Source: a virus. Taken from it: a stretch of 64,000 nucleotides of DNA. The notes beneath the pieces were generated by a model. That model did no database searches. It saw only the letters and a list, made by a program, of their open reading frames with translations, and had not been told where the DNA came from. Shown in pieces: positions 2,294 to 33,937 of the stretch. The DNA lies in the IMG/VR virus record IMGVR_UViG_3300036861_000632, positions 1-64,000 of that record; one strand, 5' to 3'. The translations under genes were made by a program, and so were the position numbers. The first letter of the stretch is position 1; each line of letters begins with the position of its first letter.

Positions 2294-2919
2294 TCCTTGA
2301 AAGCCTGTCTGATCTGGTAGCCGATGGCTTGCGGCATCATTTCGCGGGTGAAGTTCACCCAGGCATAAAGCACCGCCCGGAGCATACGGTCAACCTTGGC
2401 GACGGGCATGTTGACGATGCCGGCGATGTGGGCGAGGCCCGTCGGGTCGAGTGCGCCTCTGCCGGCTTCATCCGTGCGGAACCACAGTTTCGGATCGGCG
2501 GTGAAAGCGGCGATGACGCGAGAAGTGAGCATCTCATAGCCAGAGGTCGCATCGCCTTCGAGCAACTTCTTGTCCTTCGGTTTCAATTCCTTGAAGTTGC
2601 GCACCCAATTCTCCACGGCATCACGATCAATCCGGCGCGCGACCTCTCCCGGTTCAAGATCGAAATGCTCGATGGACGTGCCGCCCATTCCGAACTCCAT
2701 CCCGCCCGCCGTCCGGTTGCCGGTCATGGTCGAGAGGATGCCCGGAATGGCCGCGCGTTCCTCATCCGTATCAGCAATGGATTGCATCGTTAGTTCCGCG
2801 AGGAATCGCAACTGCTCCCGGTAGCGGTCGGGATTTGTGGCGATCTTCACCTTGGCTGGAATCTTCGCCTGCGCCTTTTGCAGCCGACCCATCACGCCGA
2901 TGACGTTGCTGCTAATCAT
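2290..2919 (-). CDS. Putative head-tail joining / minor tail protein
   Basis: 209 aa. I place the start at the ATG at 2919, which overlaps the stop of the upstream gene as ATGA; the frame stays open further upstream but would bury that gene. The N-terminal 40 residues are basic ('KIPAKVKIATNPDRYREQL'), followed by a mixed region and a C-terminal aromatic helix. Its position between head and tail genes suggests an HK97 gp10-type connector role, but no diagnostic motif was seen. Confidence 0.6.
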   Translation of the reverse strand: MISSNVIGVMGRLQKAQAKIPAKVKIATNPDRYREQLRFLAELTMQSIADTDEERAAIPGILSTMTGNRTAGGMEFGMGGTSIEHFDLEPGEVARRIDRDAVENWVRNFKELKPKDKKLLEGDATSGYEMLTSRVIAAFTADPKLWFRTDEAGRGALDPTGLAHIAGIVNMPVAKVDRMLRAVLYAWVNFTREMMPQAIGYQIRQAFKE

Positions 2920-3479
2920 GGCGAGGGCAAACCGGGGAAGCGCCGAATCAGAATCGACCGCGCGAACTTCGTCTGGCCGAAGATCGAATCCCAGGCCCGC
3001 GCCAATTGCTCGCCGATCTTCGCCTGAACCCATTTGCGGCCGTCGATGACAAAGGCCAGTTGCTCCAGGTCTTCAAGCTCAACCGCTGACGCCGTGGCCG
3101 CCGTGTCGCCGTCCTCAAGCTCGCGATTCACCTCGTTGAACTCAAACTGGCCAAGCACATCGCCAACCTCAAGGTCGGTGTCTCCAACCGCCCTCACGCG
3201 CACGAGGCCGGAGAGGAAATCGAGGATCGCATCGCCCACCTGAATCTCGGCGTACATTCGGGCTTCCGTCCTCGTGGGTTGGGCGGAATGGAACAGTGCC
3301 TTGACGGAGCACGATTTCTGGACGGGTTCGCTGTCGTCGGTCGAAGGCGAGGCGCCCGTGGTTGGATCAACGTCCGGTTTGCCGTCCGGCCATTCGATCC
3401 ATTGCAACGTGATGGGCGTTGGCGCTCCAACCTGAATTGCGAGCGCGTGGGATTCACGGCTGATGGATGCGAGGTTCAT
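2916..3479 (-). CDS. Virion structural protein, head-tail region
   Basis: 187 aa, ATG at 3479. The first ~60 residues are Pro/Thr/Asp-rich ('DPTTGASPSTDDSEP'), the middle is acidic beta-type, and the C-terminus is basic. No family recognised. It is translationally coupled to the next gene (ATGA, 2919-2916). Its own start lies within the readthrough of a 32-bp duplicated scrap of the response-regulator gene (3485-3516), so its present 5' neighbourhood is the product of a rearrangement. Confidence 0.6.
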   Translation of the reverse strand: MNLASISRESHALAIQVGAPTPITLQWIEWPDGKPDVDPTTGASPSTDDSEPVQKSCSVKALFHSAQPTRTEARMYAEIQVGDAILDFLSGLVRVRAVGDTDLEVGDVLGQFEFNEVNRELEDGDTAATASAVELEDLEQLAFVIDGRKWVQAKIGEQLARAWDSIFGQTKFARSILIRRFPGLPSP

Positions 3480-3484
3480 TCCAC

Positions 3485-3516
3485 TTGTCTTCGATGAGCA
3501 GGAGGATCAACATGGC
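3485..3516 (-). repeat. Duplicated 5' scrap of the response-regulator gene
   Basis: These 32 bases match 26883-26914, the first ten codons of the response-regulator gene, at 30 of 32 positions. Read leftwards from the ATG at 3513 they encode MLILLLIEDK, against MLILLLIEDN in the intact gene. After that the frame runs WNEPRIHQP and stops inside the next gene. Similarity ends at GCC upstream of the ATG. This looks like the remains of a second copy deleted after its tenth codon, or of an ectopic recombination. Confidence 0.8.
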
Positions 3517-3623
3517 TTCAATCGGTCAGCCACAAATTGCAACAGCCGCAGGCAGCCGGCGATGAACGCGATGAAGATAAGGCTGACCATAAGCGACGTC
3601 ACGATTTGTTGTCTGGTGGGCAT
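3507..3623 (-). CDS. Very small membrane protein
   Basis: 38 aa with one hydrophobic helix covering about residues 7-27 (IVTSLMVSLIFIAFIAGCL). The ATG at 3623 lies 25 bp inside the end of the preceding gene. Its stop overlaps the ATG of the response-regulator scrap. Its size and single helix would fit a small holin, a spanin component or a virion membrane peptide. Nothing decides between these, but the frame, the helix and tight packing support a real gene. Confidence 0.5.
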   Translation of the reverse strand: MPTRQQIVTSLMVSLIFIAFIAGCLRLLQFVADRLKPC

Positions 3624-3871
3624 GATTTGAACGTGATGTTGAAAGTGCGACCGCATTGCGGGCATTGATGTTCGCCGCGCACGCGGAAGATCAAACGGTT
3701 GAACGCGGCGCGATCTTTGGCCGCGCAGACTGGACACAGCGGATTCAGCATGGTGCTGGGATTTGAACAAGGCTCGTCCATAAAGGGCGCGAGCACGGCC
3801 CCCAAGGCACACGCCGCGAGACAGACGAGCGCGAGCAAGACGAGGCCGGCATGGAGGCAGAATCGTTTCAT
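3599..3871 (-). CDS. Membrane-anchored zinc-ribbon protein
   Basis: 90 aa. Residues ~7-30 are a hydrophobic segment (HAGLVLLALVCLAACALGAV) with a possible lipobox-like LAAC. The rest carries two cysteine pairs, CPVC and CPQCG, typical of a zinc ribbon, and ends in a short basic tail with another Cys. The soluble part could face either side of the membrane. It sits among structural genes beside a signal-peptide LamG protein, so it may belong to the same exported group. No named family recognised. Confidence 0.6.
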   Translation of the reverse strand: MKRFCLHAGLVLLALVCLAACALGAVLAPFMDEPCSNPSTMLNPLCPVCAAKDRAAFNRLIFRVRGEHQCPQCGRTFNITFKSCPPDNKS

Positions 3872-3914: not shown

Positions 3915-4643
3915 TCACCTTATACCTCTCTGGTTACTCAGAAGCCGGATTTGTTCGCTGTTCAGAGCGTTGTTGTAAATGCGAAGGTCGTCAATGATTC
4001 CCATGAAATGACGGTCTTGGGTTTGAACCCTTTCATCGCCGAGACACACCTTGTTATTGTTGGTATTGACAGCCAAGACGATGGCCTTGTTGGTGCTTGA
4101 GATACCGTTGGTGTAAAGGTAAGCCACTCCGGCATTGTAAATGAAAGCCAGATGAACCCAAGTGTTTGATGGAAGCACCAGAGAATCAACTTCATCATAC
4201 GTGCCACCCGTGTTCATTGCAAAAACAGCCTTGAGAGTTGAACCGTTTCCATCAACCCTGGCCGCCCACCCTTTTTTCCCCCCCGCATTGTCTTCGTTCC
4301 CCAAAATGCCCATCGGGTGATTGAGTGGAGACGTGGGATAAACCCAGACCGCCACACTGAAATTGGTCGAGAAGTTAAAGGCGTTTCCATTCGTCATCAA
4401 ACCGCCCTGATTGGTCCCGTTGAATTGCAGCGCCGATGCAATTTTGCCCGTTTTCCAGGTGGGGGAGTTTGTCAGATTTGCAACGTTCGTTCCTGCATAA
4501 TCTCCAGCCACCGCCCCGCTCCCCTCATTCAGTGTCCACCAGTTGATGAGGTTCGTTCCGTCAACGCGCGCGTCCATGAATCCCATCGGCGCCGCGAAGG
4601 CCGCAAGGCAGCTCAAGATCAAAATGGAAAGGGTGCGCGTCAT
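3915..4643 (-). CDS. Exported LamG/concanavalin-like lectin protein
   Basis: 242 aa. Residues 1-18 are a clean signal peptide (basic MTRT, then ILILSCLAAFAA). The rest follows the LamG/laminin-G-like pattern: 'WWTLNEGSG', 'ALQFNGTN', 'FSVAVWVYP', 'NTWVHLAFIYN', 'LYTNG', 'GIIDDLRIYNNAL'. Such jelly-roll domains bind glycans or form surface adhesins. It is Asn/Thr-rich like many Verrucomicrobiota exported proteins. It is coupled by ATGA to another signal-peptide protein. Its place inside the tail gene cluster suggests a virion-associated or secreted carbohydrate binder acquired from a host. Confidence 0.8.
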   Translation of the reverse strand: MTRTLSILILSCLAAFAAPMGFMDARVDGTNLINWWTLNEGSGAVAGDYAGTNVANLTNSPTWKTGKIASALQFNGTNQGGLMTNGNAFNFSTNFSVAVWVYPTSPLNHPMGILGNEDNAGGKKGWAARVDGNGSTLKAVFAMNTGGTYDEVDSLVLPSNTWVHLAFIYNAGVAYLYTNGISSTNKAIVLAVNTNNNKVCLGDERVQTQDRHFMGIIDDLRIYNNALNSEQIRLLSNQRGIR

Positions 4644-13820: not shown

Positions 13821-13954
13821 AAGAACACCGACTCATCTGTCAGCGTCGCTGTCTCCCAGGTGGTGGCTTCTACAAATGGACGCCCCGTAAGCCGCATCCC
13901 GTCGAATGCCCGAATTGCAAATCCCGAAACTGGAACCGCAAGAAAGCCGCCTGA
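13817..13954 (+). CDS. Small zinc-binding protein
   Basis: 45 aa, ATG overlapping the stop of the recombinase remnant (ATGA at 13817-13820). It has Cys at residues 8 and 12 and a CPNC pair near the end ('PVECPNCKSRNWNRK'), so one zinc site is likely. Basic residues suggest nucleic-acid binding. Only two bases separate its stop from the glycosyltransferase ATG, so the two are probably co-translated. Confidence 0.6.
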   Translation: MKEHRLICQRRCLPGGGFYKWTPRKPHPVECPNCKSRNWNRKKAA

Positions 13955-13956
13955 CT

Positions 13957-16317
13957 ATGTTCAAGAACCTCCTCGCGCTGACCCATTCGCCCACGATTGA
14001 AACCGGCATCGGGCGCGTCACGCAGAACCTCTTTTCGCGCTTCAAACCGCACTTCGAGTCCATCGACATTTTCGCCATCAACTACAACGGGATGCCGCAC
14101 GCGATGCAAAAGGAATACACCCTCTATCCTCCGCCCCGTGGTGACGAGTGGGCGAGCCGGGATGGGCTGGGAGCGTTCTGCGACCGGATCAGGGTGGCCT
14201 TCGAGAATGGGCGCGGCTATTCGCACGTCTGGATGTGCGAGGAACCGCGCAGTCTTTCGCAGTGGAACTTTCCACAGACCATCAATCGCGCGGGCAGCCA
14301 TTTCGGATTCGTGACGGCGGGTTACTTCCCCGTGTGCTCGCAGATGGACGACAAGTGGCTGGACATCATCCGGGCGGTCGATTGCCCGGTGGCGTACACG
14401 AACTACGGTCTGACCGAGATGTTGCGCGGCAAGCGGGAACTGCTGTTCAAGGGACGCTCCAAGCCGGCGATCATCCCGCACGGCGTCAACCCGGAGATTT
14501 ATCACCCGGTCAAGCCGGAAGCGAGAATCGCCATGCGCTCGCGTCTCCAACTCGCCGAAAAGGATTTCGTCCTGCTTAACGTCAACCAGAATCAGCGCCG
14601 CAAAGGGCTGGTGAACTCGTTTCAAATCCTCGCCCTGCTCCGTTCAATGAACGTGCCGGCCGTGCTCATCATGCACATGCCGGATGGCAACGAGATTGAG
14701 GGCACGTCCATCAGCGCGATGGCGGATCAGCTTGGCGTCTTGCCGGCATGGTGGCGTTCGTCGGATGATCTTTTCCTCAACGGCCACGCGCGCATGGCGG
14801 AGACTTCGTTGAACCTCGTTTACAACTGCGCCGATCTCGTGCTGTCCACGACCTACGGTGAAGGCTTCGGCCTGAGTTTGATCGAGGGAGTGGCGGCGGG
14901 CTGCTGTGCCGCCATGCCGGACCACACGGCCTGCGCCGAGATTGCCGACGCCATCAACGCTTCACAGCCGGGCCGTGTCCTCAAGCTGCCGGTGTCTGAC
15001 ATCGCCATCGTCAACATGCGGGACGATTCGCGCGTGCGTTATCCGGTGGATGTGAAGGCGTCTGCCTTTGCCATTGCCGACCTGTACGGCAAAGAGAAGT
15101 GGCGCATCCGCGAACCGCTCTCACCCGCCATCCGCAACTGGCTTGATTGGGACCGCATCGCAAAGCAGTGGCTCAAATTTATGGACATTGAGAAGCCCGC
15201 GGTGCCGGAGTCCTACACCATCGAATCGTCGAGGCGGGTGATGATTCCGCACAGCGAATGCGTGGCGCCAACTCCGAGCTTTCAGAGGCAGACACCGTGG
15301 CCGAGTGGATTGGTCCCGCTGCCTGTCACTAAGGACATGGCTTACTTCAATTCGGGGCTGGTGCGCGGGCCGGATGCTCAACTGTGGCTGGTTTCACGGA
15401 AGGCGGTGCGGGTGAACCATCCGAAGCTGCTAGACCATAGTAATCTGGCGGCGATTGCCTTAAACGAGAACATGGAGCCGCGCCACGGATATTCGCTTGC
15501 ACAGCTACTCGCCGGGGACACGCAAGCGGATAGAGTGGATCGGGCAATCGAAAAAATGCTCGACCTTCCAAACCGCGAAACCGAACAGCACGAAGACCCG
15601 CGCGTCGTTTTTCACGCCGGCATGTTCTATGTCGCCTACGCCTCGTGGTCGCGAGAGACATGCATCCCGAACAGCAAGCAGCGCATGGCGGCGTTCAAGG
15701 ATTGGAACAGTCAGCCGATCGTTGGCCGCGAAATATTCTACGGCAACAACGACTCCGCCAATCCGGGCACGGAAAAGAACTGGCTGCCGTTCTTCCATGA
15801 TGGCGTCCTGCATCTGGTCTATCGGTTCGCGCCGCACATCGTCATCGCGCCCTACGCGCAAAACGGCGTCGCGCTGGTCGAATACCGGACGGCCACGAAT
15901 GACACCTGGAAATGGGGCGAGATTCGCGGCGGCACTCCGCCTGTCCGCGTGGGCGACGAATACATTTCGTTCTTCCATTCCTCAACGCCGTGGCGCGGGC
16001 CGTTCCGCCGCTATTACATGGGCGCGTATGCGTTCGCTGCCAAGCCGCCGTTCAACGTCACGCGCATCAGTCCGAAGCCGATCCTCGCCGGGAGCGATGA
16101 GGACTCGCGGTTGTGGGGCAAGAACAAGCCGGCGGTGATCTTCCCGTCCGGGGCGTTGCTTGAGAAGGAGGAGTGGCTGGTGACGGGCGGCTGCAATGAT
16201 GAGGCGACTTTCTGGATTCGGATTCCGCACAAGGAATTGGAGATGCGGGAGTGCTCCACGAACGATGAAGTCAGCCACACGGCTGGCCGAAAACCAGAAA
16301 GTGAAGGAATGAAATGA
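13957..16317 (+). CDS. Fusion: GT4 glycosyltransferase plus GH130-like propeller domain
   Basis: 786 aa from the ATG at 13957. The N-terminal half is a GT-B glycosyltransferase: 'AIIPHGVNPEIYHP', 'LLNVNQNQRRKG', and the GT4 nucleotide-sugar motif 'STTYGEGFGLSLIEGVAAG' around residues 300-318. From about 450 the sequence follows GH130 mannoside phosphorylase/mannosidase blades: 'EDPRVVFHAGMFYVAY', 'NWLPFFHDGVLHLVYRFAPH', 'YISFFHSST', then 'VIFPSGALLEKEEWLVTGG'. One polypeptide would thus join sugar transfer to a mannoside-acting propeller. It probably acts in the cytoplasm on host glycan or polysaccharide. Catalytic competence of the second domain was not established residue by residue. Confidence 0.8.
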   Translation: MFKNLLALTHSPTIETGIGRVTQNLFSRFKPHFESIDIFAINYNGMPHAMQKEYTLYPPPRGDEWASRDGLGAFCDRIRVAFENGRGYSHVWMCEEPRSLSQWNFPQTINRAGSHFGFVTAGYFPVCSQMDDKWLDIIRAVDCPVAYTNYGLTEMLRGKRELLFKGRSKPAIIPHGVNPEIYHPVKPEARIAMRSRLQLAEKDFVLLNVNQNQRRKGLVNSFQILALLRSMNVPAVLIMHMPDGNEIEGTSISAMADQLGVLPAWWRSSDDLFLNGHARMAETSLNLVYNCADLVLSTTYGEGFGLSLIEGVAAGCCAAMPDHTACAEIADAINASQPGRVLKLPVSDIAIVNMRDDSRVRYPVDVKASAFAIADLYGKEKWRIREPLSPAIRNWLDWDRIAKQWLKFMDIEKPAVPESYTIESSRRVMIPHSECVAPTPSFQRQTPWPSGLVPLPVTKDMAYFNSGLVRGPDAQLWLVSRKAVRVNHPKLLDHSNLAAIALNENMEPRHGYSLAQLLAGDTQADRVDRAIEKMLDLPNRETEQHEDPRVVFHAGMFYVAYASWSRETCIPNSKQRMAAFKDWNSQPIVGREIFYGNNDSANPGTEKNWLPFFHDGVLHLVYRFAPHIVIAPYAQNGVALVEYRTATNDTWKWGEIRGGTPPVRVGDEYISFFHSSTPWRGPFRRYYMGAYAFAAKPPFNVTRISPKPILAGSDEDSRLWGKNKPAVIFPSGALLEKEEWLVTGGCNDEATFWIRIPHKELEMRECSTNDEVSHTAGRKPESEGMK

Positions 16318-16529
16318 GCGCAACCGATAACCAGAAACCGTCCGCCGAAGCCCAACGCGAAGCCGTGTTGTGCTGCACTGATTTGTTAGGCTGCCCGAAT
16401 TGCAAAAGCACAAACATCATAAAACTCTGGCGGGCCGAGATCGTCCTGCCCGGTGACAACTCAGACAACTCAACCAAAGGATACCGATATGGATGCCATG
16501 ACTGCGACTCAATCTTCTACGCCCGTTAA
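16314..16529 (+). CDS. Small zinc-ribbon protein
   Basis: 71 aa, coupled to the glycosyltransferase by ATGA at 16314. 'CPNCKS' near residue 27 and 'CHDCDS' near residue 61 form a two-knuckle zinc ribbon. Such small proteins are frequent between phage genes and often bind nucleic acid, but no specific role can be given. Its 3' end overlaps the next gene by 41 bp. Confidence 0.6.
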   Translation: MSATDNQKPSAEAQREAVLCCTDLLGCPNCKSTNIIKLWRAEIVLPGDNSDNSTKGYRYGCHDCDSIFYAR

Positions 16530-16845
16530 GTGGCGCCCCGAACACGGCGGCGCATACCGCTGCCTGCGTGCCAACGAAGAGCATGGCACGAAGAAGGGTA
16601 AAATCTACATCTACGAAACGACCTTCTACCCTCAAGGCGAAATCTGCCACTACAACTCGCGCTGGCAAACGCGACTGCTCGGCGGATGCAACTCGCTTCG
16701 ACAACCCGGCGCGTTCGAGACGGTGACAATCTGCCCGTTCTGCGGCGCGACCATGTATAAACCGGAAGCCGATGCCAGCGGCTTCTTCCCGCTCGCCCAC
16801 GATGCTGCTGAGTGCGCGAAGAAAACCGGAGACTCGTCAGCCTAA
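16489..16845 (+). CDS. Cysteine-containing small phage protein
   Basis: 118 aa from the ATG at 16489, preceded by AAGGAT at a usable distance; an ATG at 16498 is the alternative. Contains 'VKWRPEHGGAYRCLRANEEH', a beta-rich middle ('GKIYIYETTFYPQGEICHYN') and a 'CPFCGA' knuckle near the C-terminus. Function unknown. The stop is immediately followed by a stem-loop. Confidence 0.6.
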   Translation: MDAMTATQSSTPVKWRPEHGGAYRCLRANEEHGTKKGKIYIYETTFYPQGEICHYNSRWQTRLLGGCNSLRQPGAFETVTICPFCGATMYKPEADASGFFPLAHDAAECAKKTGDSSA

Positions 16846-16857
16846 CGCAAAGTTAGG
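16841..16857 (+). other. Short stem-loop CCTAAC-GCAAA-GTTAGG
   Basis: A perfect 6-bp inverted repeat with a 5-nt loop overlaps the stop codon of the preceding gene. It lacks a U-tract, so it is not an obvious terminator. Its arms resemble integron core sites, but the spacing is far too short for attC. Confidence 0.35.
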
Positions 16858-16885
16858 GCATTGCCACCGGACGGAAGCGAACTCG

Positions 16886-17038
16886 ATGACCCACAACCAC
16901 AACACCACGAAGACTAAATATGCACTACAAAGCGACTTAGAAGCGATTTCCTTCGCGCAATTGATGAATGTTGCGCTAAACGAAAACATCCATGTTGACC
17001 ATCTGCCTGACAACCTGCCGGCCCGAACCGAAGTTTGA
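16886..17038 (+). CDS. Possible small protein
   Basis: 50 codons from an ATG at 16886, polar N-terminus (THNHNTTKTK) followed by a helix ('LQSDLEAISFAQLMNVALNE'). It overlaps the next glycosyltransferase by 47 bp. Composition of the helix is protein-like, but the long overlap and lack of motif make it uncertain. Confidence 0.3.
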   Translation: MTHNHNTTKTKYALQSDLEAISFAQLMNVALNENIHVDHLPDNLPARTEV

Positions 17039-17975
17039 TTACTTCTTCGACTCATTGCATCGGGAACTGTGCGGCGATTACAGGGGCGTCACTATTGTCA
17101 TCGTGGATGCGCTCCTGAATCAGCGCCCTCCGAACCTTGCAATCCAGCGGTCGGTTGCTGGCAGTGCGACACTTCACTGTGCAGACCCGAAACCGACGCT
17201 TCACTGGATAGAGCCGAAGCCGAACTTGTGGCAGGGCGTCCATCGCCTCACGAGCCAAGACTACTGGGCGAAGTGCAACGCGCTCAACACGGCGCTCTGC
17301 TACGCTCCCGATGGTTGGTTCACCGTCATGGACGATCTTGGTGTGCTAATTCCCGGCTGGGGCAAGGCGCTCAAACGCGCGATGGTAGATGACAAGATCA
17401 TCACCCTGGGCGCTTACAAGAAGGTGAAGGAATTGGAGATTGAGGACGGGGCGGTGATTTCATTCAAGCCCCACTTGAACGACAGGGGCGAAGATGTTGG
17501 CCGGGATTCCCGCTGGTCGCGCGGAAGTTTTGAAGGTCCAGTACCTGCCGTGGGCGACATGATGTTCGGCCACGTCACCGCGCCAGTTGAAGCCTTCCTC
17601 AAGATCAATGGCTACCCGGAACTCCTGTGCGATTCGCTTGGATTCGAGGATGTCATCACCGGCATCACGCTCGAAAAGGCGGGCTACAAGTTTGTGTACG
17701 ATCGGACGATGCTCGTGTTTGAGAGCGAGGAACTGCATCATCTGGTGCAAGCGGGGAACGTCAAGATGACGACGGTGAAGCGGATCGACAAAGGTTGTAG
17801 CCCCAAGGACAAATCGAACGAGGTTCTTCGCCGCGCTCGCGCTGGCGACTACTCCATCTGGAACAATTACGATTTGCGGGAGTTGAGGCAGGGCATTCTC
17901 AACGGGGGAGAATTTCCTGTGCCGCTTTCCCCTGTCGTAGATTGGTACGACGGGATGGCCTTGAATCAGATGTGA
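16992..17975 (+). CDS. GT2-like glycosyltransferase
   Basis: 327 aa, GT-A-like. It begins with the strand 'MLTICLTTCRPEPKFDYF', has a 'YAPDGWFTVMDDLGVLIPGW' segment where the DxD-type metal site lies (MDD), and a late acidic motif 'GFEDVITGITLEKAGYKFV', typical of the catalytic-base region in GT2/galactosyltransferase-type enzymes. It would transfer a nucleotide-activated sugar in the cytoplasm. Its stop overlaps the following ATG (TGATG at 17973-17977). The specific donor cannot be read from sequence. Confidence 0.75.
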   Translation: MLTICLTTCRPEPKFDYFFDSLHRELCGDYRGVTIVIVDALLNQRPPNLAIQRSVAGSATLHCADPKPTLHWIEPKPNLWQGVHRLTSQDYWAKCNALNTALCYAPDGWFTVMDDLGVLIPGWGKALKRAMVDDKIITLGAYKKVKELEIEDGAVISFKPHLNDRGEDVGRDSRWSRGSFEGPVPAVGDMMFGHVTAPVEAFLKINGYPELLCDSLGFEDVITGITLEKAGYKFVYDRTMLVFESEELHHLVQAGNVKMTTVKRIDKGCSPKDKSNEVLRRARAGDYSIWNNYDLRELRQGILNGGEFPVPLSPVVDWYDGMALNQM

Positions 17976-18700
17976 TGCCCGTCGTAACCGTCAGCCTGCT
18001 TGGTCGTCTGGGGAACAATTTATTTTCCTACGCCTACGCCCGCGCCTACGCCGAACGTCACGGCTTTGAGTTTCAGTGTGACCCGTGGATCGGGCAGAAG
18101 ATTTTCCAGATCAACGATACTCCCGTCCACGAGAAGAATCGGGCTATGGCGCGAAGAACCGAATTGGATGTCCGCGATGGCGAAAGCAACATCGAGTTCC
18201 GCACTTACGCGCAGAGTCAGGCGGCGATGATTTACACGCGGACGCAAGCGCGAGCATGGTTCAGGTTTCGCGAGGAACATCAGTATTTGATGCCACCTCC
18301 AGATGATCTGCTGGCACACCATCGCGTCGGCGACATGCAAGGCTATGGGTACCCACAAATCCGTCGCGCATCATACCTGACCGCCTGCGAGAAGTTCGGT
18401 TTCGACCCCAAGCTTCTTCGGTTTGTAACCGAGGAACATCCAACCGATGTGCCGGGCCTGACGAAGATGGGCCTTGGGTTCCTGCCCGACTTCTACCGGC
18501 TTGCAAACGCCCGAATTCTGTTTCGCGCAAATTCATCGTTCAGCTTTTGGGCATCCATCATCGGGAAGGCTGAGAGAGTGTTCAGCCCGGTCATCCGGGG
18601 ACTCGAAGGCGGACGTGAACATGATGTGAATTTCATTGAAGGATTATGGCCGCGCTTGGCCGATCTCGATGGAGTGACCGACTTACACCTACCAACATGA
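17975..18700 (+). CDS. Fucosyltransferase-like (GT11) enzyme
   Basis: 241 aa from the ATG at 17975. The N-terminus 'LLGRLGNNLFSYAYARAYAE' matches the characteristic GxGNqlFqyAfarala opening of alpha-1,2-fucosyltransferases. 'HHRVGDMQGYGYPQ' could correspond to the HxRrgDy donor motif, with Val for the second Arg and Met for Tyr. The C-terminus 'FSFWASIIG' resembles the SsFSwWaa motif. It should use GDP-fucose or a similar donor. It is coupled to both neighbours. Confidence 0.75.
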   Translation: MPVVTVSLLGRLGNNLFSYAYARAYAERHGFEFQCDPWIGQKIFQINDTPVHEKNRAMARRTELDVRDGESNIEFRTYAQSQAAMIYTRTQARAWFRFREEHQYLMPPPDDLLAHHRVGDMQGYGYPQIRRASYLTACEKFGFDPKLLRFVTEEHPTDVPGLTKMGLGFLPDFYRLANARILFRANSSFSFWASIIGKAERVFSPVIRGLEGGREHDVNFIEGLWPRLADLDGVTDLHLPT

Positions 18701-19281
18701 AACCTTTCGAGGAGCGAATGCGCTACGAGTATAACCTGACGCCCGACAGCGTGGTCATCGACGCGGGCGGGTATGAGGGGAACTTCGCCAAGATGATTGC
18801 TGACAAATACGGATGCAAGGTGTTCGTGTTTGAGCCGGTGTCCCGGTTCGCTGAAATCATCGAGAAGAAGCTGTCCCACTACCAGAATATCGACGTATTC
18901 CGATTTGGCATCGGTGCCGTAACAGGCCCGAAGAAATTTCATGTCCAGAACGATTCGACGGGCGAATTCGCCGGGAGCACTGACACCGAGATCGTCCAGC
19001 TTTTCAGCATAGATGAAATTGATGATGCACTTGGGTTCCCGCTGTTCGAGGATGACGTTTCACTTTTCAAGTTAAACGTGGAAGGGAACGAGTTTTGCAT
19101 TTTGGAGCGCGCCCTAGAAACAGGACTGGTCACTCACTGGCGCAACATCCAAGTCCAATTTCATCCAATCGTCCCTGACTACGAAGCCCGCTATCAACGC
19201 ATCCGCGAAGGCTTGCTCAAGACGCACGAGTTTACGTTTGACGAACCTTGGATCTGGCAGAATTTTGAATTACGCAAATGA
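18697..19281 (+). CDS. FkbM-family methyltransferase
   Basis: 194 aa from the ATG at 18697 (ATGA overlap). The SAM-binding fold is visible: 'VVIDAGGYEGNFAKMIADKYG' (motif I, with GGYEG in place of GANVG), 'VFVFEPVSRFAEII' (acidic end of strand 2), and 'LFKLNVEGNEFCIL', the 'lKiDvEGaE' signature of FkbM proteins with Asn for Asp. FkbM enzymes O-methylate sugars or small molecules, here probably a glycan made by the neighbouring transferases. Confidence 0.85.
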   Translation: MKPFEERMRYEYNLTPDSVVIDAGGYEGNFAKMIADKYGCKVFVFEPVSRFAEIIEKKLSHYQNIDVFRFGIGAVTGPKKFHVQNDSTGEFAGSTDTEIVQLFSIDEIDDALGFPLFEDDVSLFKLNVEGNEFCILERALETGLVTHWRNIQVQFHPIVPDYEARYQRIREGLLKTHEFTFDEPWIWQNFELRK

Positions 19282-19451
19282 AGACGTTGCTCACCAAGCT
19301 CAAAGCAAAACTGCGCGACTGGCTTTTTGCGGATTACAAATGGGTGACGCGCGCACAAGTGCAGCGTGAAATCTGTGCGGCACGGTGGGAATACCGAAAC
19401 TATCCACTCGTGCAGCGCGTTCTCTCGGAACTTCAAGAAACGATAAAATGA
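19278..19451 (+). CDS. Small basic protein
   Basis: 57 aa, ATG at 19278 overlapping the FkbM stop, and its own stop overlapping the next ATG (ATGA twice). The N-terminus is strongly basic (KTLLTKLKAKLRDWLF), followed by helical 'VTRAQVQREICAARWEY'. The coupling on both sides is the best evidence that it is real. Function unknown. Confidence 0.6.
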   Translation: MKTLLTKLKAKLRDWLFADYKWVTRAQVQREICAARWEYRNYPLVQRVLSELQETIK

Positions 19452-19627
19452 ATACCTCACACGAACCACATTCCGGCATGTTCCTGATCGTGCCGTCCAG
19501 TCTGCGGGCCTTCACCGGCATGGATTGCTACTGGGTTTTGCCGCTGACTCTTTCCGGCAATCCGGCGTTCAGCCACATCAATTACCTGACCGCTGAAGAA
19601 GTCGGGCAGGAGTTCGGAGGAAACTGA
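19448..19627 (+). CDS. Small protein of the glycan island
   Basis: 59 aa, ATGA-coupled to the previous gene and ending one base before the GT25 gene. Contains 'FLIVPSSLRAFTGMDCYWVL' and 'HINYLTAEEVGQEFGGN'. The 3' end AGTTCGGAGGAAACTG supplies a good Shine-Dalgarno (GGAGGA) for the following ATG. No recognised family. Confidence 0.55.
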   Translation: MNTSHEPHSGMFLIVPSSLRAFTGMDCYWVLPLTLSGNPAFSHINYLTAEEVGQEFGGN

Positions 19628-19628
19628 C

Positions 19629-20312
19629 ATGCACATCGGAAAATACTTCGACCAAATCATTTGCATCAACCGCGTTTCCCGTACTGACAGAAGGCGGCAC
19701 GCCGCGGCTCAGGCGATCCGTTGTGAACTGTTCGACCATGACAACTTTCAGTTCTTCACAGCCCATGATGGCCACATGCTCGACGGCACGTTCAATGGCA
19801 ACTTTGGATGCACCGCCTCTCACCGCGGCGTCCTTGAACTCATCGCGCATCACGGCTGGGAACGGACACTTGTGCTCGAAGACGACTTTGACGTGGTTGA
19901 ACCTGGCCGTTACGCCGACCACGCGAAGAACCGCCTGCCGTTCAACGAGCAATGGGCGAAGATGATCGGCGAAGTGCCGGACGATTGGGAGATGCTCTAT
20001 CTCGGCGGGCATTACGCGGAGGCACCGATTGCGCGGGTGTCCGAGCACGTCATCCGCATTGGCCGGATGCTGACCACGAGCAGCTACGGCATCACCGCGA
20101 AGTTCGCCCGCAAGATTGCGCCTCATATTTCCGGCATCGGCCCCATCGACGTGCTCTACGGCGGGTTCCACCGCGAGAACCGCTGCTACTGCTTCACGCC
20201 GCGCTTGATGGTACAGTATGAAAATCTAAGCGACCTCCAGCATCGCAAAATGGATAACTCTCAATGTATGCTGGACCCGAACCACGAGGCGATGGTGCCG
20301 TTCAGCGACTAA
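19629..20312 (+). CDS. GT25-family glycosyltransferase (LPS type)
   Basis: 227 aa, ATG at 19629 with a strong GGAGGA upstream. The pattern is that of GT25 enzymes acting on lipooligosaccharide: 'IICINRVSRTDRR' at the N-terminus, 'FGCTASHRGVLELI' (the cxxSHxxvl motif), 'TLVLEDDFDVV' (metal-binding EDD), 'LYLGGHY' and 'TSSYGITAKFARKI'. It probably transfers galactose or another hexose to a host surface glycan. It ends the plus-strand island and overlaps the convergent minus-strand gene by 11 bp, with no terminator visible. Confidence 0.88.
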   Translation: MHIGKYFDQIICINRVSRTDRRRHAAAQAIRCELFDHDNFQFFTAHDGHMLDGTFNGNFGCTASHRGVLELIAHHGWERTLVLEDDFDVVEPGRYADHAKNRLPFNEQWAKMIGEVPDDWEMLYLGGHYAEAPIARVSEHVIRIGRMLTTSSYGITAKFARKIAPHISGIGPIDVLYGGFHRENRCYCFTPRLMVQYENLSDLQHRKMDNSQCMLDPNHEAMVPFSD

Positions 20313-20946
20313 AGCCTGCATCGTTTGTATTCATGCGCCCTGTCGCGCCATCCAGTTGCTCCTTCTTTGCGAAGATTTGCAACTTGGGCGTCGGCACCGT
20401 GTAGAGCGACCGCGCTTGCAGGCGAAAGTAACCATCAGGCAGGTTGGTCACATAGACGGGGATCGTGATGATGCCGTTCGTCATGCTGTCCTCCCACTCG
20501 CAGCGGCCAGAACGAGAACCCAAATCATCGGTTGGCGGATAATAAGTGGCGTGCATGTTTGACCGGCCTACTGCGGTTCCGATTATACGGTTGGTCATCT
20601 CCGTTCCCGGCGCGTAGAACAAATCGCCCCGCCATATTTCCGTGTAAGGCTTCCGCAAGTCGGTCGTGAATCCGATGGTGTAAAAGGTGTTTGTCACAGC
20701 ATACCACGAGAGCGTCAGCTTGTTCGTAGCGACCACAGTGACGACCAGTTCGCCCGGCACCATCCGCTTGCCGGCGCGCGAACCAGCCTTGATGGACTCG
20801 ATGACCTTCGGCAGTTGCGGCGTCGCAACGCAGCCGACCAGAATGCCGACGAAGGCGGCGACCAGCCAGTTGCCCACCGCCATTTTGGCGGGAATTTGGA
20901 TTTCAGGTTTGCGGTCGGGCCAAGTAGTTGATGGTGGGCGTTTCAT
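20302..20946 (-). CDS. Exported lipoprotein-like protein, paralogue 1 beside subtilisin
   Basis: 214 aa from the ATG at 20946, which overlaps the protease stop. An internal ATG at 20883 would give a cleaner lipoprotein signal (VAAFVGILVGC). The mature part aligns by eye with the product at 23291-23785: both have GKR...PG, then 'FYTIGFTTDL..PYTEIWRGDL' and 'GRSNMHATYYPPTDDLGS'. The two paralogues flank the subtilisin gene, so they probably act with it at the cell surface. The fold resembles fibronectin/PEP-type domains of Verrucomicrobiota exported proteins, an inference. Confidence 0.7.
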   Translation of the reverse strand: MKRPPSTTWPDRKPEIQIPAKMAVGNWLVAAFVGILVGCVATPQLPKVIESIKAGSRAGKRMVPGELVVTVVATNKLTLSWYAVTNTFYTIGFTTDLRKPYTEIWRGDLFYAPGTEMTNRIIGTAVGRSNMHATYYPPTDDLGSRSGRCEWEDSMTNGIITIPVYVTNLPDGYFRLQARSLYTVPTPKLQIFAKKEQLDGATGRMNTNDAGFSR

Positions 20947-23294
20947 GGTGTGTTGGTGATGATGACTGGAAAAGGGGTGGACATCTCCACGTTCGTCCCC
21001 CGGAACACTTTTGCGAAAATCGTCTGAGACCCGCTGGCATTCGTGCCGGGGTTGAACCGGATGGCATAGGGCGGATTCGAGGCGATACCCAGCAGTGTCG
21101 CATTGCCCAGCCAGAATTCGACGCGCGGCACGGGCGGCAGGGCACTCAGGAATACCAGCGATGCGTCACTCGTGCGCTCTTGGTCGTCGAACACCACGAC
21201 CTCAAAGGCGCTGGTGCCGGGCGTTTCCAGCACGATATTCCTACGGCCTTCCAACATGTCGCTGACGCGCCCTTGGTGAAGCCACGGCTGCACGGCGTAC
21301 GACGTGGGCCGGTTGCTGGGATTCGAGGCCGTCAGATCAAAGGTGACGGTGTGTGGAGCCGGCCCGCGATTCGTGCTCATGGAGAACGCGAGTCGAGGCA
21401 CGTAGGTCGATGGATTGATGCGGATGACCGCCGTGGTCGAGACCCCAAAGTTGCCGGAGCGGTCGAACACGAACGCGCGGCCCGTCGTGGCGTTCGTCAC
21501 CGCCAGCACCGAAACGAAGTAGGGATTCGTGCGGCCGTCCGGCACCTGGTTGAATGTCCACCACGAGTTCGGCCCCACGTCCATCTGGAAAACATACGAG
21601 CACGTCTGCGGGTCGAGCCGGTTGGTATCCACCGAGAGCGTATGTTCAAACCAGCCGGCGGCATTCGTCTGAAAAGTCCAGTGGGTGATGAACTGCGAGA
21701 GGTTGGTCCGGGCTTTCTCATCCCGATACACGAACGCCGTGCGCGCCACCGACGAAATGCCGGCGTGACTGTCGAGCGCGTGGAAGGTGAACCAAGCTTG
21801 GTCATCGTAAGCCCACGGCGCGGCGGTCAGCGTGAAATCGTTGCTGGCGGTGCCCGCGGCGAAGCGATGGCTGCCAAACAGGGCGGAGACGCCCTCTCCA
21901 AAACCTGAAAGATCGAAGCCGCTTTGGAGCCGGTAGGTGATCGCGTCGCCATCCGGGTCGGTGGCGTTCGCGCGCCAGCGCACGGATTGCCCTGCGTTCA
22001 ACACCGCATTCGCACCGTTGACGGTGAGCGTGGGCGGATGGTTCGCGAACGGATGGAGCACTTCGGGATTGTTGACGAGCTTGTTGAGATTCAGCCGGCC
22101 ACCGCTGAAGCACGGCAGGTTGCGCGCATCAAGGCTGGCCTGCGAGAGCAACAACTGCTTCACCTGAAGTGGAGCGAGTGCCGGGTTGAGCGCGAATAGC
22201 AACGCGGCGGCGCCAGTGACGTGTGGCGCAGCCATCGAGGTTCCACTCAGGAACTTGTAGCCGGACGGATCGCACAATGAGCCTGAGCCGGTGCACACGG
22301 TGGAGTAAATCGAAACGCCCGGCGCGGCAAGGTCGGTGCCAAACCAACCGTAATTGCTGAACGTCGCCCGCGCGTCCTGATCGTCGGTCGCCATGACCGA
22401 AATGATCTGGTCCACCGGGATGCTCGCCGGCCAGAATTGGTAAATGTCCAGATCGCCACCGTTGTTGCCCGCCGCGCAGACGATCAACAGGCCGGCGTCC
22501 CCGGCGGCTTGCATCGCGTCGGCCAGCGCCTGATCTGGTCCACCCCCGCCCCACGAACAGTTGATGGCGCGGATGTTCACGCCGGCTTGTTTCAGATCAA
22601 CGGCCTTTTCGATCATCAACATCCCGTCGCTGATCTGCCCGCTGCCCGTTTCGTTGAGGAACTTGAGGTCGATGATCCTGAGTCCACTCCAAGCGAGGCC
22701 GGCCACGCCGACGCCGTTGTTGCCGACCGCGCCGATGATCCCGGAGCAGTGCGAGCCGTGCCCATGCTGGTCGCCGGTCGTGGTTCGGATGAGACCGAAC
22801 TGGGCTTGGTAGCCGTGCTCGCCATTTGTGCCCGTCCACGCAACGGGCGCGAGGTCAGGATGAGTAAAGTCCACGCCGGTATCGCATACGGCGATGATGA
22901 CGTTCGTGGCGTGCGTGAGGCGGTCCCATGCGAGCGGCGCTTCGATCTTCACCGGCCCCCACTGCTGGTTGAACAGCGGATCGTTTGGCACCGCCTGAGT
23001 CGTCACGATGCGGTCCTCTTGAACCGCGTCGAAGAGCGGCGAGTTTAGATAAGCGGCGAGAGCGCGCTTGGCGGCGGCATCATTCGATGGCAGCCGGACG
23101 ACATGCCAGCGGACGTACTTGAACTGGTGAACCTTTTGCGCGCCGTGCTGGCCGTGGAATTTATCCGCGTCGATTTCCGACCCCTTCTTGACCCGCACTA
23201 GGATCGTCGCCCCAGCGGGATTTACGAAGCGTTGATACGGTGCCGCGCCCAGTGACAGCGTGACCGCCAGAAGAATGAGCGCGACCAGATTCAC
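20943..23294 (-). CDS. Secreted subtilisin-like serine protease (S8)
   Basis: 783 aa. Signal peptide at 1-18 (NLVALILLAVTLSLGAA), then a propeptide-like region. The S8 domain has all catalytic elements: Asp138 in 'VCDTGVDFTHPDL', His179 in 'HGHGSHCSG', oxyanion Asn277 in 'AAGNNGG', and Ser353 in 'LSGTSMAAPHVTGAAA'. From ~410 the sequence is beta-sandwich/PKD-like ('HPPTLTVNG...TDPDGD'), with Asn/Thr-rich segments to the end. It should act outside the host cytoplasm. It is coupled by ATGA to a lipoprotein on each side. A phage-borne secreted subtilase is unusual; possible roles are virion-access proteolysis, host surface shaving or late lysis. Confidence 0.92.
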   Translation of the reverse strand: MNLVALILLAVTLSLGAAPYQRFVNPAGATILVRVKKGSEIDADKFHGQHGAQKVHQFKYVRWHVVRLPSNDAAAKRALAAYLNSPLFDAVQEDRIVTTQAVPNDPLFNQQWGPVKIEAPLAWDRLTHATNVIIAVCDTGVDFTHPDLAPVAWTGTNGEHGYQAQFGLIRTTTGDQHGHGSHCSGIIGAVGNNGVGVAGLAWSGLRIIDLKFLNETGSGQISDGMLMIEKAVDLKQAGVNIRAINCSWGGGGPDQALADAMQAAGDAGLLIVCAAGNNGGDLDIYQFWPASIPVDQIISVMATDDQDARATFSNYGWFGTDLAAPGVSIYSTVCTGSGSLCDPSGYKFLSGTSMAAPHVTGAAALLFALNPALAPLQVKQLLLSQASLDARNLPCFSGGRLNLNKLVNNPEVLHPFANHPPTLTVNGANAVLNAGQSVRWRANATDPDGDAITYRLQSGFDLSGFGEGVSALFGSHRFAAGTASNDFTLTAAPWAYDDQAWFTFHALDSHAGISSVARTAFVYRDEKARTNLSQFITHWTFQTNAAGWFEHTLSVDTNRLDPQTCSYVFQMDVGPNSWWTFNQVPDGRTNPYFVSVLAVTNATTGRAFVFDRSGNFGVSTTAVIRINPSTYVPRLAFSMSTNRGPAPHTVTFDLTASNPSNRPTSYAVQPWLHQGRVSDMLEGRRNIVLETPGTSAFEVVVFDDQERTSDASLVFLSALPPVPRVEFWLGNATLLGIASNPPYAIRFNPGTNASGSQTIFAKVFRGTNVEMSTPFPVIITNTP

Positions 23295-25685: not shown

Positions 25686-25864
25686 TCAAGCGGCAGGCTT
25701 GTGGCTGTAGTGGCTCCAGATGAGTCCGGCGATGAGCACGATGGCCCCCTCACATCCTCGCCGTTGAGGACGTTGGCGGCAGTGGTTGCCCCGTGGGTAA
25801 TCAAAGCCGTGCCGATGACTTTGAGGGCGGTGCGGACGAGCGAGGTGAGTTGGTCTTGGTTCAT
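25686..25864 (-). pseudogene. Holin-like small membrane protein, split by a -1 frameshift
   Basis: The frame from ATG 25864 reads 'NQDQLTSLVRTALKVIGTAL' and continues to VLNGEDVRG. There a run of five G (25749-25745 on the minus strand) shifts the natural continuation 'AIVLIAGLIWSHYSHKPAA' into the -1 frame, ending at 25686. Together this gives a 59-aa protein typical of small phage holin-like proteins (LVRTaLk...GaliaGLiwSHysHKp). Without the shift the frame runs on as non-membrane sequence to 25646. Causes could be a programmed slip, a real mutation or a homopolymer error. Confidence 0.7.
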
Positions 25865-26262
25865 GGTGTTTTGGGAGGTTCGATGTTTGTTGCTGGAGAT
25901 GAAGCATCATCCGCCTTGAAAAGTTTCTGGTCAAGCACCCGCTTGAGAACCTTTGCGTGCAATGCCCATGTCCCGCACGCAAGCAGGAAGCCCTGCATGT
26001 AAACCTGAAGATACATGGCCACTTCCGGGCAGCAGAGCTTCGGATCGAAATCCGCGATGCACGGCCAGCCGAGGAAGAACGGGCCGAGGATCGTGCCCGC
26101 CGGAACCGTCACGAGCGGGATGAACTTGTTCGGGAAGAAACGTTGAGGCACAATCTTCAGACCGTAGCCAACTGCCAGCAATGTCACGATGAGCAGCTTC
26201 GGGCCGGTGAGCGTGATGATGGAAACGATGAGTTGGTCGATTACTTCCAACGGTGAATTCAT
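25861..26262 (-). CDS. Membrane protein, candidate holin
   Basis: 133 aa with hydrophobic helices at about residues 10-35 ('IVSIITLTGPKLLIVTLLAV'), 45-68 and 83-102, and a charged, Pro/Ala-rich C-terminal tail. Size, topology and the neighbourhood of two further small membrane proteins suggest a holin that permeabilises the inner membrane at lysis. Coupled by ATGA to the frameshifted gene. Confidence 0.5.
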   Translation of the reverse strand: MNSPLEVIDQLIVSIITLTGPKLLIVTLLAVGYGLKIVPQRFFPNKFIPLVTVPAGTILGPFFLGWPCIADFDPKLCCPEVAMYLQVYMQGFLLACGTWALHAKVLKRVLDQKLFKADDASSPATNIEPPKTP

Positions 26263-26265
26263 AGG

Positions 26266-26493
26266 TCAGTGTTTCGTCAGGTGTGTGCCAAGGTCATAAA
26301 GCAGCTTCAAGAAATCCAGCACGGCGATGAGTCCGATCCACTTGACCAGCCCGATGATCGCCTTGGCCCCAAGCCACCAGTCGCGCATCTCCTTGTGCTC
26401 GACAACCAGATCGTGCAGGACCTCATCCTGCAAGCAGCGGCGTTCGTTGAGCAACTTTTCCAGATCATCCCGGTCGCGTTTCGGTGGCGGCAT
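26266..26493 (-). CDS. Small membrane protein with cytoplasmic coiled coil
   Basis: 75 aa. The first ~40 residues are charged and helical ('RDDLEKLLNERRCLQDEVLH'). Residues ~43-66 form a single transmembrane helix ('AKAIIGLVKWIGLIAVLDFL'). It overlaps the response-regulator gene by 29 bp, so the two are translated together. It could be an antiholin or inner spanin-like protein. Confidence 0.5.
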   Translation of the reverse strand: MPPPKRDRDDLEKLLNERRCLQDEVLHDLVVEHKEMRDWWLGAKAIIGLVKWIGLIAVLDFLKLLYDLGTHLTKH

Positions 26494-26911
26494 AAGCGGA
26501 AATGGCGGCGGTGAGCGATCTCAATTTGGTGAGCTTTTCTTCCAGCGGAACATTTGGCCGGGTTACGCGCGCGAGCCGCCGCACGAAATCCGGCCCCTTG
26601 TTGAGCAGCCCGAGCGAGCCGGAAACCATGTCCTTCGCGCCCCCGATGCCCGTGATGACCACGATGGGGGTTCCGCGCGCCGTCGCCACAATCTCGAACA
26701 TTTTCCCGAGCGTTTCCGCGCTGGTCGAATCCTCCAGGGTCAGATCGAGCAGGATGAGGTCGAAATGTTTCTGGCTCAGGACGGCCAGCGCGTCCTTGAG
26801 CCGGGCGCAGTCCGTGAACTGCACATGGTCAGTGCCGTATGCCTGCTCAAACTCGTGATGGATGAGCAGCACGTCCTGCGGATTGTCTTCGATGAGCAGC
26901 AGAATCAACAT
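26465..26911 (-). CDS. Stand-alone response-regulator receiver (CheY-like)
   Basis: 148 aa. All receiver-domain landmarks are present: acidic pair Glu8-Asp9 ('LLLIEDN'), phospho-acceptor Asp56 ('DLILLDLTL'), Thr87 ('PIVVITG') and Lys105 ('LLNKGP', CheY Lys109 equivalent with the usual Pro one residue further on). No DNA-binding or enzymatic output domain follows; the last ~30 residues are a basic helix. No histidine kinase is in the window, so it would have to use or disturb host phosphorelay. The first ten codons are duplicated at 3485-3516. Confidence 0.9.
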   Translation of the reverse strand: MLILLLIEDNPQDVLLIHHEFEQAYGTDHVQFTDCARLKDALAVLSQKHFDLILLDLTLEDSTSAETLGKMFEIVATARGTPIVVITGIGGAKDMVSGSLGLLNKGPDFVRRLARVTRPNVPLEEKLTKLRSLTAAISAYAATETRPG

Positions 26912-26977
26912 GGCCGGTTGGTCTTTCTTTTAGTTCGTTTACGTACAGTTCACAATGTTTTCTCGTAGCCGTTCATA
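26912..26977 (-). promoter_or_regulatory. AT-rich gap before the receiver gene, possible promoter
   Basis: The 66-bp gap between the fibre stop and the receiver ATG is AT-richer than its surroundings. It contains 'TTGTGAACTGTACGTAAAC' with a TACGTA dyad. No consensus pair of boxes at a good distance was found, and no Shine-Dalgarno is seen. Confidence 0.25.
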
Positions 26978-31451: not shown

Positions 31452-33281
31452 CTACCCGCACATCGCCGCGCTCTCCTCCGGCACATCGTTCCCGCCCTCG
31501 GACATCTGCTCCTTCAACCACTCCCGAAACGCCACATACGCATACATGCCCGCGTAGGCGAAGTCCTTGTTGCCGCGCGCCGAGTAGAGCCGTGCCCCGT
31601 GCGCCGACGTGAACGTGGTCCCGTTCTCGTTCGTCTTCACGAAGACGCGCGTCAACTGGATCGCCATTTTTTGCAGCAGCCGGTTGGCGTGTTTGCGTTC
31701 CTCGGTCCATTCGGCGGTTTGTTGCTGCGGCCGGTCATTCAACCGCTCCGGCAGTCCGATGAGCCTGTTGGAGATGGCCTCGTGGAACTCCGAGTGCGCC
31801 AGATCGTACAGGTTGTCATCGTGCCGGCGCGGGCATTCGCTCCACAACTCGCTGATCCGGGTGTCCTGCCACGAGAACATGGAGAGGATGAATTCCGAGT
31901 TCATCGGCAGCTTTTCCTCGTCCTCGATGCAGGCGATGGGGCGCACACGCACGTTCTCTCCTGGCACTTCACGGCGGGCCTTGGCCAGTTCGGGACGAAT
32001 CCACTGACCGCCGCCGTTCGGGTCCATCACAATCCGCGAGAATCCGAAGTGGAGATGCTTGCGTTGCAGAATCGCCGCCCATTGTTCGCCGTCCGCTCCG
32101 CGCACCTGATAGGCCCAGATGAAGTCCAGTTCCATGTCCCGCAGATCGAGGATGGATTCGCCGACCTGTCGCGCCCGCAGCACGACCACGGCGCCGTCAT
32201 CGGATTTGCGCGAGTCGGACTTGGCCGGGTCAATGCCGCAGAAATAGAACGTGGGCCTTGCGCCGATCAAGTTCGTCGGTGATCGGTGCCCCGTGATGGG
32301 CAGGACGTTCCGTTCCTTGCCGAGATTGTAGGCGGCCTTGATGAGTTCCGGCGTGTACAGCCCGCGGCCATTGTCAGACCAGATGCCCAGCAATTCCTCG
32401 CGCACCTTGGCCCGGCCTTTGCGGCGCATGTCGGCAATGTTGTCGTCATCGCGCAACTTTTCGCGGAACGACTTGCCATCGCGATACTGGAAATGGCTCC
32501 AGTCCTTGTACGAGTATTGCAGGATGGCGAAGTTCGGATCACCCGCGGCAACGCGGCGCTTGAAGTAAAGCCACCGATCGTACCCCGGATGGACGGCATC
32601 CTCGGCGGTGCCCAGGAACATCTGGTGGTTGGTCCAGAACGGGTGTTCCTTGTTGAAATTCTCGCGGTTCGTCCGGCCAATGAGTTGATCGTCGATGCCG
32701 GTTGATCCGGTCGCGTCGATCTTCGGCCATTCGTCGATGCCAAGAAAGTTGAAGCGCAGACCGGCTTGGTTTTTAGAGTCCTGCAAGAACGAACCGGCCG
32801 GCATGAGGATTTTCGATTGGTTGAGGAAATCGACCGCGTAACACGACGGGTTCTTGCTCGCCCCCTTGCTCACGTCCTCCTCAACGCCATCGAGGCCGAC
32901 CACGCGCGGTTTGCCCACCTGTGCGCGGAAGAAATCCGACTGCGCGGCGTAGCGCGAGAAGTAGGGGTAGAACGCCTGCTGCATGGTCGGGAACGACTGA
33001 AAGTAGATGGCGGCGACGTGATCGGGGATGACGATGCAGCGGAGGACGGATACCCAAAACAGGTTGACCGTCTTGGCGGAATTGTAGCCCGACGAATCCA
33101 TGACGCGCGGCACCCACCAACTGATTTTGAACCGGCTCTTTTGGAACTCGTCCATCTTGATCTTGAAGGTGAACTCGGCGAGGCGCGTCACGTCGTCCGT
33201 CATCGCGTCCTCGATCATCGTCTGAGTGATCTTCAGATGCTTGGGGACGGAGGGGATGAGGATTTGCGGGCCGTCGGTCAT
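31452..33281 (-). CDS. terL: Terminase large subunit
   Basis: 609 aa. The ATPase part has a degenerate P-loop GYNSAKT (residues 65-71, Ala for the usual Gly) and a Walker B-like 'FNFLGIDEWPK' (177-187). The nuclease part has an RNase H-like opening 'FYFCGIDPAKSD' (Asp351), the following 'RIVMDPNGGGQW' and an acidic 'DDNLYDLAHSEFHE' near the C-terminus. It cuts concatemers and drives packaging through the portal encoded next. Coupled by ATGA to the upstream methyltransferase. Confidence 0.9.
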   Translation of the reverse strand: MTDGPQILIPSVPKHLKITQTMIEDAMTDDVTRLAEFTFKIKMDEFQKSRFKISWWVPRVMDSSGYNSAKTVNLFWVSVLRCIVIPDHVAAIYFQSFPTMQQAFYPYFSRYAAQSDFFRAQVGKPRVVGLDGVEEDVSKGASKNPSCYAVDFLNQSKILMPAGSFLQDSKNQAGLRFNFLGIDEWPKIDATGSTGIDDQLIGRTNRENFNKEHPFWTNHQMFLGTAEDAVHPGYDRWLYFKRRVAAGDPNFAILQYSYKDWSHFQYRDGKSFREKLRDDDNIADMRRKGRAKVREELLGIWSDNGRGLYTPELIKAAYNLGKERNVLPITGHRSPTNLIGARPTFYFCGIDPAKSDSRKSDDGAVVVLRARQVGESILDLRDMELDFIWAYQVRGADGEQWAAILQRKHLHFGFSRIVMDPNGGGQWIRPELAKARREVPGENVRVRPIACIEDEEKLPMNSEFILSMFSWQDTRISELWSECPRRHDDNLYDLAHSEFHEAISNRLIGLPERLNDRPQQQTAEWTEERKHANRLLQKMAIQLTRVFVKTNENGTTFTSAHGARLYSARGNKDFAYAGMYAYVAFREWLKEQMSEGGNDVPEESAAMCG

Positions 33282-33937
33282 GTGGCTACCAAGGTGTGTT
33301 GCTTCACGCCGGGCATTATGGCACGACCGATGTATTCCGTGTAGGCTGGCGGTATTGCTTCCTTGAGTCCGTCACTGGACATCCATCCAATGCCATAGGC
33401 TTGCGGCGCGTTCTTCACGGACTTCGGCTGGATGCCGAGGGCGTGGCGTTTGGCGCGGCTTGCTTTGCTGGCGGTCGTCACCAGCAGCGGAAGATTTGAG
33501 TGGTCGCACTTGCACGGAGCGGCGACTTGGATATTCGTCTCGAAGTAGCGATGCCGTTGCGTCCGCAGCCCGAACATTGAGCCGCAGAGCATCACCGGGT
33601 TTTCCAGTTCGTGCCGTGCGCCCGCCACATTCTCGATGACGTAGGGCTTGTCGAGACGCTTAACCAGTTCACGCACGGCGGGTATCAGCTTCGCGTGGTC
33701 GCCGCGATTCTTGGCGGGCGTCAGGTGCGAATAGCCTTGGCATGGCGGAGAGGCGTGTATCAGGTCGTATTCGTGGCCGTGCGCTTCGAGGTATTCGAGA
33801 GCATCACCGAGCACGAACGAGAACGGGTAGCGCGGACGCGGCATGATGTCCACGCCCGTCACTTCGTAGCCCGCGAGCGCGTAGCCCATGCCTGCGCCAC
33901 CTTCGCAGCAGAACAAATCCAAAAGGCGGATGCTCAT
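33278..33937 (-). CDS. C5-cytosine DNA methyltransferase
   Basis: 219 aa. Motif I 'LLDLFCCEGGAGMGYALAG', motif IV 'ASPPCQGYS' with nucleophile Cys66, motif VI 'VIENVAGA' (ENV 102-104) and motif VIII QRHR (127-130) are all visible. The part after motif VIII is short, with a small target-recognition region and no separate long motif X, as in many compact phage enzymes. It would methylate cytosine in phage DNA, probably to escape host restriction. Coupled to terL. Confidence 0.93.
   Translation of the reverse strand: MSIRLLDLFCCEGGAGMGYALAGYEVTGVDIMPRPRYPFSFVLGDALEYLEAHGHEYDLIHASPPCQGYSHLTPAKNRGDHAKLIPAVRELVKRLDKPYVIENVAGARHELENPVMLCGSMFGLRTQRHRYFETNIQVAAPCKCDHSNLPLLVTTASKASRAKRHALGIQPKSVKNAPQAYGIGWMSSDGLKEAIPPAYTEYIGRAIMPGVKQHTLVAT

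Follow-up and report, generated by a model that had tools for sequence, protein, structure and literature searches.

The window analysed here, 64,000 nt long and covering positions 1 to 64,000 of the virus record IMGVR_UViG_3300036861_000632, raises the question why a short stretch between two gene blocks reads like the beginning of a receiver-domain gene that lies 23 kb away. The initial annotation had noted that thirty of 32 bases at 3485–3516 equal the first ten codons of the receiver gene in the same orientation, after a stop overlap, and that the frame then breaks into the start of the next gene. Alignment within the window bore out the match: 3485–3516 and its twin at 26883–26914, both on the minus strand, are identical at 30 of 32 bases. 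The shared block comprises 3 nt upstream of the ATG, codons 1–9 and two bases of codon 10, reading GCC + ATG TTG ATC CTC CTG CTC ATC GAA GAC AA at 3485–3516 and GCC ATG TTG ATT CTG CTG CTC ATC GAA GAC AA where the intact receiver gene begins. The repeat starts only three bases ahead of the ATG, and this one short element alone links the two loci. Both mismatches in the block, ATC/ATT (Ile) and CTC/CTG (Leu), are silent and occupy third codon positions, and the first mismatch past the block, AAG/AAT (K/N), is at codon position 3 too; this phasing argues for a protein-coding history of the block. When MLILLLIED[NK] was searched at the DNA level with at most two mismatches, these were the only two sites in the record.

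On the minus strand the order of genes at the 3.5-kb locus is tail-fibre genes, a LamG-fold protein, a 90-aa predicted lipoprotein, a 38-aa membrane ORF, the segment, a 187-aa gene and then more structural genes, so that the segment sits at a gene boundary between blocks. The LamG/ConA-like lectin-fold tail protein (3915–4643, minus strand; PF13385, E = 1.1e-25) is encoded by a gene with a GC content of 0.51 and a GC3 of 0.61, and it is chiefly this gene that brings the GC content from about 0.60 in the structural block to 0.50–0.55 just upstream of the segment in the direction of transcription. The 90-aa predicted lipoprotein (3599–3871, minus strand), upstream neighbour of the 38-aa ORF, carries CxxC pairs reminiscent of a zinc ribbon and a lipobox recognized by eye only; its Pfam matches are weak and all under the cut-offs. 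The 38-aa ORF (3507–3623, minus strand; MPTRQQIVTSLMVSLIFIAFIAGCLRLLQFVADRLKPC) resembles a small membrane protein or mini-lipoprotein with a lipobox-like IAGC, likewise judged by eye only, and family searches with it gave no match. As the initial annotation had stated, there is a stop overlap, the 38-aa ORF ending with TGT TGA inside the ATGTTGA of the segment, and the frame opened by the segment does break into the next gene: it ends 10 codons past the block with a TGA at 3454–3456, beyond the ATG of the 187-aa gene at 3479. The resulting predicted ORF of 19 aa (3454–3513, minus strand; MLILLLIEDKWNEPRIHQP, stop TGA) thus runs into the beginning of the 187-aa gene in the structural block (2916–3479, minus strand), whose start codon follows the stop of the 38-aa ORF after 27 nt, a spacer filled by the segment. 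Elsewhere, a plus-strand island at 13906–20312, which starts with glycosyltransferase-like genes, lies inside the minus-strand late operon. A DNA methyltransferase gene at 33278–33937, matching PHROG 363, and a putative second one at 35375–36151, assigned by sequence motif only, are both found upstream of the terminase-like gene. Bases 1–48 of the record recur at record positions 93386 and 93539 with a 153-base period; this 48-bp terminal repeat suggests either that the genome is circular or terminally redundant or that the repeat comes from assembly.

The intact receiver-domain gene (26465–26911, minus strand, 148 aa) matches Response_reg of Pfam and receivers of the PDB by sequence and by fold. 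Against the Pfam profile it scores 29.3 bits (E = 1.1e-6), just under the cut-off of 30.2, and the alignment stops at position 85 of the 111 in the profile. Like CheY-like receivers (PF00072), its product keeps the acidic pair E8/D9, the phospho-acceptor Asp D56, the Thr/Ser position T87 and the Lys K105, and the fold is preserved over its first two thirds. The first part of the product models as a receiver fold similar to solved receivers, the structure model being confident to about residue 60 only, with pLDDT below 50 after residue 86. Unlike PF00072 receivers, the protein has a diverged C-terminal third and no output domain, and its gene lies between tail-fibre and holin genes. A frameshift behind the odd C-terminus was considered and rejected, as no better frame was found. 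Compared with the CheY-like domain, the segment at 3.5 kb holds strand 1 only. Directly upstream of the intact gene, across a 66-nt AT-rich gap, lies a tail-fibre gene (26978–29899, minus strand; PHROG 11393, E = 3.8e-8). The end of the receiver gene is overlapped by 29 nt by the gene of a 75-aa coil-plus-TM membrane protein (26266–26493, minus strand), which had no match in family searches and is XhlA-like by position and appearance only. Next downstream follows a holin-like gene (25861–26262, minus strand; PHROG 1129 holin, E = 3.7e-5; Pfam Hol44, E = 0.0012, below cut-off). A subtilisin-family protease (20943–23294; PF00082, E = 2.4e-46) is encoded near this lysis region.

With only 32 bases in common, coincidence has to be weighed before any history is proposed. 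None of 100 dinucleotide shuffles of the window yielded such a match, and once tandem and terminal repeats are set aside, the pair ranks first among the repeats of the complete 93,586-bp virus record, the next-best dispersed pairs reaching about 25/32. Both results uphold the earlier claim that the match is beyond chance. It had been pointed out as well that the motif might turn out to be a common short sequence in contigs with no receiver nearby. This case was run and a different picture emerged: the exact start block had zero matches in 2.9 million viral contigs and zero in 84,980 bacterial and archaeal species genomes, while among plasmids the closest match spanning most of the query was itself the start of a response regulator. 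As to an assembly artefact, the record is a metagenome assembly, and beyond this nothing specific speaks in its favour; a copy created by mis-assembly would not be expected to depart from its original, yet these two disagree at two bases and in the flanks on either side. With shuffles producing no such match, we regard chance or artefact as very improbable.

The kind of sequence involved is revealed by a 17-base core, CTGCTCATCGAAGACAA, which is common to the starts of unrelated response-regulator genes. Because this core opens such genes, the segment can be taken, from the sequence and beyond reasonable doubt, as the start of a receiver gene. A response-regulator gene on a Rhodanobacter plasmid agrees at its start with the local receiver gene to 87.5% over 32 bases, and a Caballeronia response-regulator start has most of the core. 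Since receiver starts are evidently conserved at the DNA level, identity alone is no proof of a recent copy of the local gene. The segment might instead be a fragment of a different receiver gene, from another phage or from a host, its likeness being due to family conservation and shared codon preference. Besides the Rhodanobacter start and the common core, a calculation lends this some credit: given the same nine residues MLILLLIED and independent codon choice, an identity of at least 25/27 arises in 3.3% of draws (P = 0.033). Such an origin, however, requires the same MLILLLIED, the TTG second codon and the GCC before the ATG to have come together in another gene, and no such exact start occurs in the 84,980 species genomes or in the viral contigs. 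Outside the 17-base core the segment is less similar to the Rhodanobacter and Caballeronia starts, compared with 30/32 for the local gene, and is thus nearer to the local receiver gene than to the unrelated receivers compared. A foreign receiver as the source therefore seems quite unlikely to us, and on these comparisons the segment very probably stems from the lineage of the local receiver gene.

We searched for relatives in which the two loci could be followed. Among the viral contigs no relative was found with the receiver, the 187-aa gene, the PHROG-1366 protein, the terminase-like or the capsid-like proteins as queries; several structural and lysis proteins retrieved no relative among the INPHARED phages, and at the sensitivity of the search no relatives of the receiver were found in bacterial genomes. 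The viral contigs and INPHARED accordingly yielded no related phage with a receiver at the 3.5-kb locus or with an empty site. Receivers in similar company do occur in unrelated viral contigs. In one of them, L011, a single base separates a fibre gene from the receiver behind it; in another, L010, a receiver plus PAS gene overlaps by 4 bases with the start of a weakly XhlA-like membrane protein gene. No second receiver was present in the portion of sequence examined from either contig, and in the literature nothing apposite was found on receivers in phage lysis cassettes.

Taken together, these findings lead us to consider the 32 bases probably a scar that the start of a receiver gene left where gene blocks were joined in the late minus-strand operon of a tailed phage. 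A cassette with a small membrane gene followed by the receiver would have been present, or have come in, at 3.5 kb after the tail-fibre genes, and a deletion, or a crossover joining the cassette to the structural block, would have removed codon 10 and the rest of the receiver. At 26.9 kb, where another tail-fibre gene precedes it, the receiver is now intact. Such a scar is what recombination would leave if short segments shared near the ends of genes served as joints. Two histories would fit, one in which the receiver stood at 3.5 kb and was then lost, and one in which its start came as the end of a cassette. In favour of a junction scar are the rank of the pair among the dispersed repeats, unmatched by shuffles, the ATG of the scar overlapping the stop of the 38-aa ORF, whereas the intact receiver has its 66-nt AT-rich upstream gap, and the like company of the receivers in L011 (after a fibre gene) and L010 (before an XhlA-like protein). 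Against it stand the lack of a relative with either state of the locus among the genomes searched, the link between the two loci through a single short element, a receiver composition that is not foreign, and the lack of any receiver remnant around 3.5 kb apart from the scar, although further pieces were sought there.

How far the homology once extended bears on the first of these histories, in which duplication of the receiver was followed by deletion of all but the first ten codons of the 3.5-kb copy, leaving a gene fossil. The 9-base word CATCCATCA is found in frame past the block at both loci, one codon out of register. Compared with random segments its P is about 0.002–0.004, a post hoc value, and at the peptide level the extension beyond codon 10 is not significant (P = 0.08). 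The word hints that homology may once have run to codon 18, while past codon 10 scar and receiver resemble each other at best marginally, a further point against the junction scar. This word, the high identity and the silent differences would all suit a full second copy, as would the recurrence of receivers behind fibre genes (L011). On the other hand, the locus is without later receiver sequence, no relative was found carrying a receiver there, and a crossover at the junction accounts for the same facts without a whole copy. A complete duplicate is thus a possible history within the junction-scar explanation, though one we would rather doubt than assume. The initial annotation had read the segment as the record of a former second copy, or of an event that moved the receiver together with lysis or membrane genes. 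Its receiver origin and non-chance nature stand. The former copy in its strong form appears plausible, as one of several fitting histories; the joint move gains no support from composition, since the receiver gene is typical in this respect (GC3 0.78). For the same reason a joint low-GC island spanning both receiver loci was rejected.

A scar may also have been kept for a use. The 19-aa ORF could serve to couple translation of the 38-aa ORF to that of the 187-aa gene, replacing a ribosome-binding site, which would be compatible with an origin as a scar. A stop/start overlap lies at its front, the start of the next gene is overlapped at its end, and it bridges exactly the 27-nt gap. Most of the late minus-strand starts checked have no Shine-Dalgarno duplex better than random ATGs, and many genes are packed stop-to-start, with starts -4 to +5 nt from the upstream stop; the overlap of the scar's ATG with the 38-aa stop fits this tight coupling. 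A 27-nt gap is ordinary here, however, as gaps of 24–66 nt occur, and coupling explains retention, not origin. We therefore regard such a coupling role as unlikely, and even more cautiously view the thought that a receiver start was retained as a 19-codon coupling leader, i.e. that a gene-end fragment was recruited to link translation, in a genome in which most starts are without a Shine-Dalgarno site. An antisense or other RNA element was considered too: a plus-strand transcript of 3485–3516 would pair with the start of the receiver mRNA and cover the translation start exactly, all but two positions at most forming Watson-Crick pairs. Close by on the plus strand neither a promoter-like nor a terminator-like site was found, the segment has no stable RNA fold (z about +1), and the differences track codon phase. 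With neither promoter nor fold the idea was rejected as extremely improbable.

A scar at a gene junction has counterparts in known phages. A comparison of the mycobacteriophages Island3 (gene 67/68) and Brujita shows a gene end repeated over about 50 bp at a module insertion, where a gene was gained or lost (PMC3029335), and as in that pair the element described here is a short duplicate of one gene end near gene boundaries. The Island3/Brujita repeat is of a 3' end, adjoins its source and has a relative showing the alternative state, whereas the present scar is of a 5' end 23 kb from its source. Mosaic junctions are also made by Rad52-like phage recombinases, which can use homology that is short or diverged (PMC3945230); short shared stretches near gene ends could likewise be joints of this type, although the homologies tested in that study were hundreds of bases long compared with a block of 32 bases here. 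The segment is genuine, derives from a receiver gene and, as a probable scar, belongs to an ordinary kind, such scars being a common by-product of phage recombination. Taken alone it is a small evolutionary footnote. In this orphan phage, however, the joint can still be read: it marks where blocks met and points to movement of receiver genes among sites that lie behind tail-fibre genes and beside lysis genes. The presence of receivers between tail-fibre and membrane or holin genes in unrelated phages may hold the more lasting interest.
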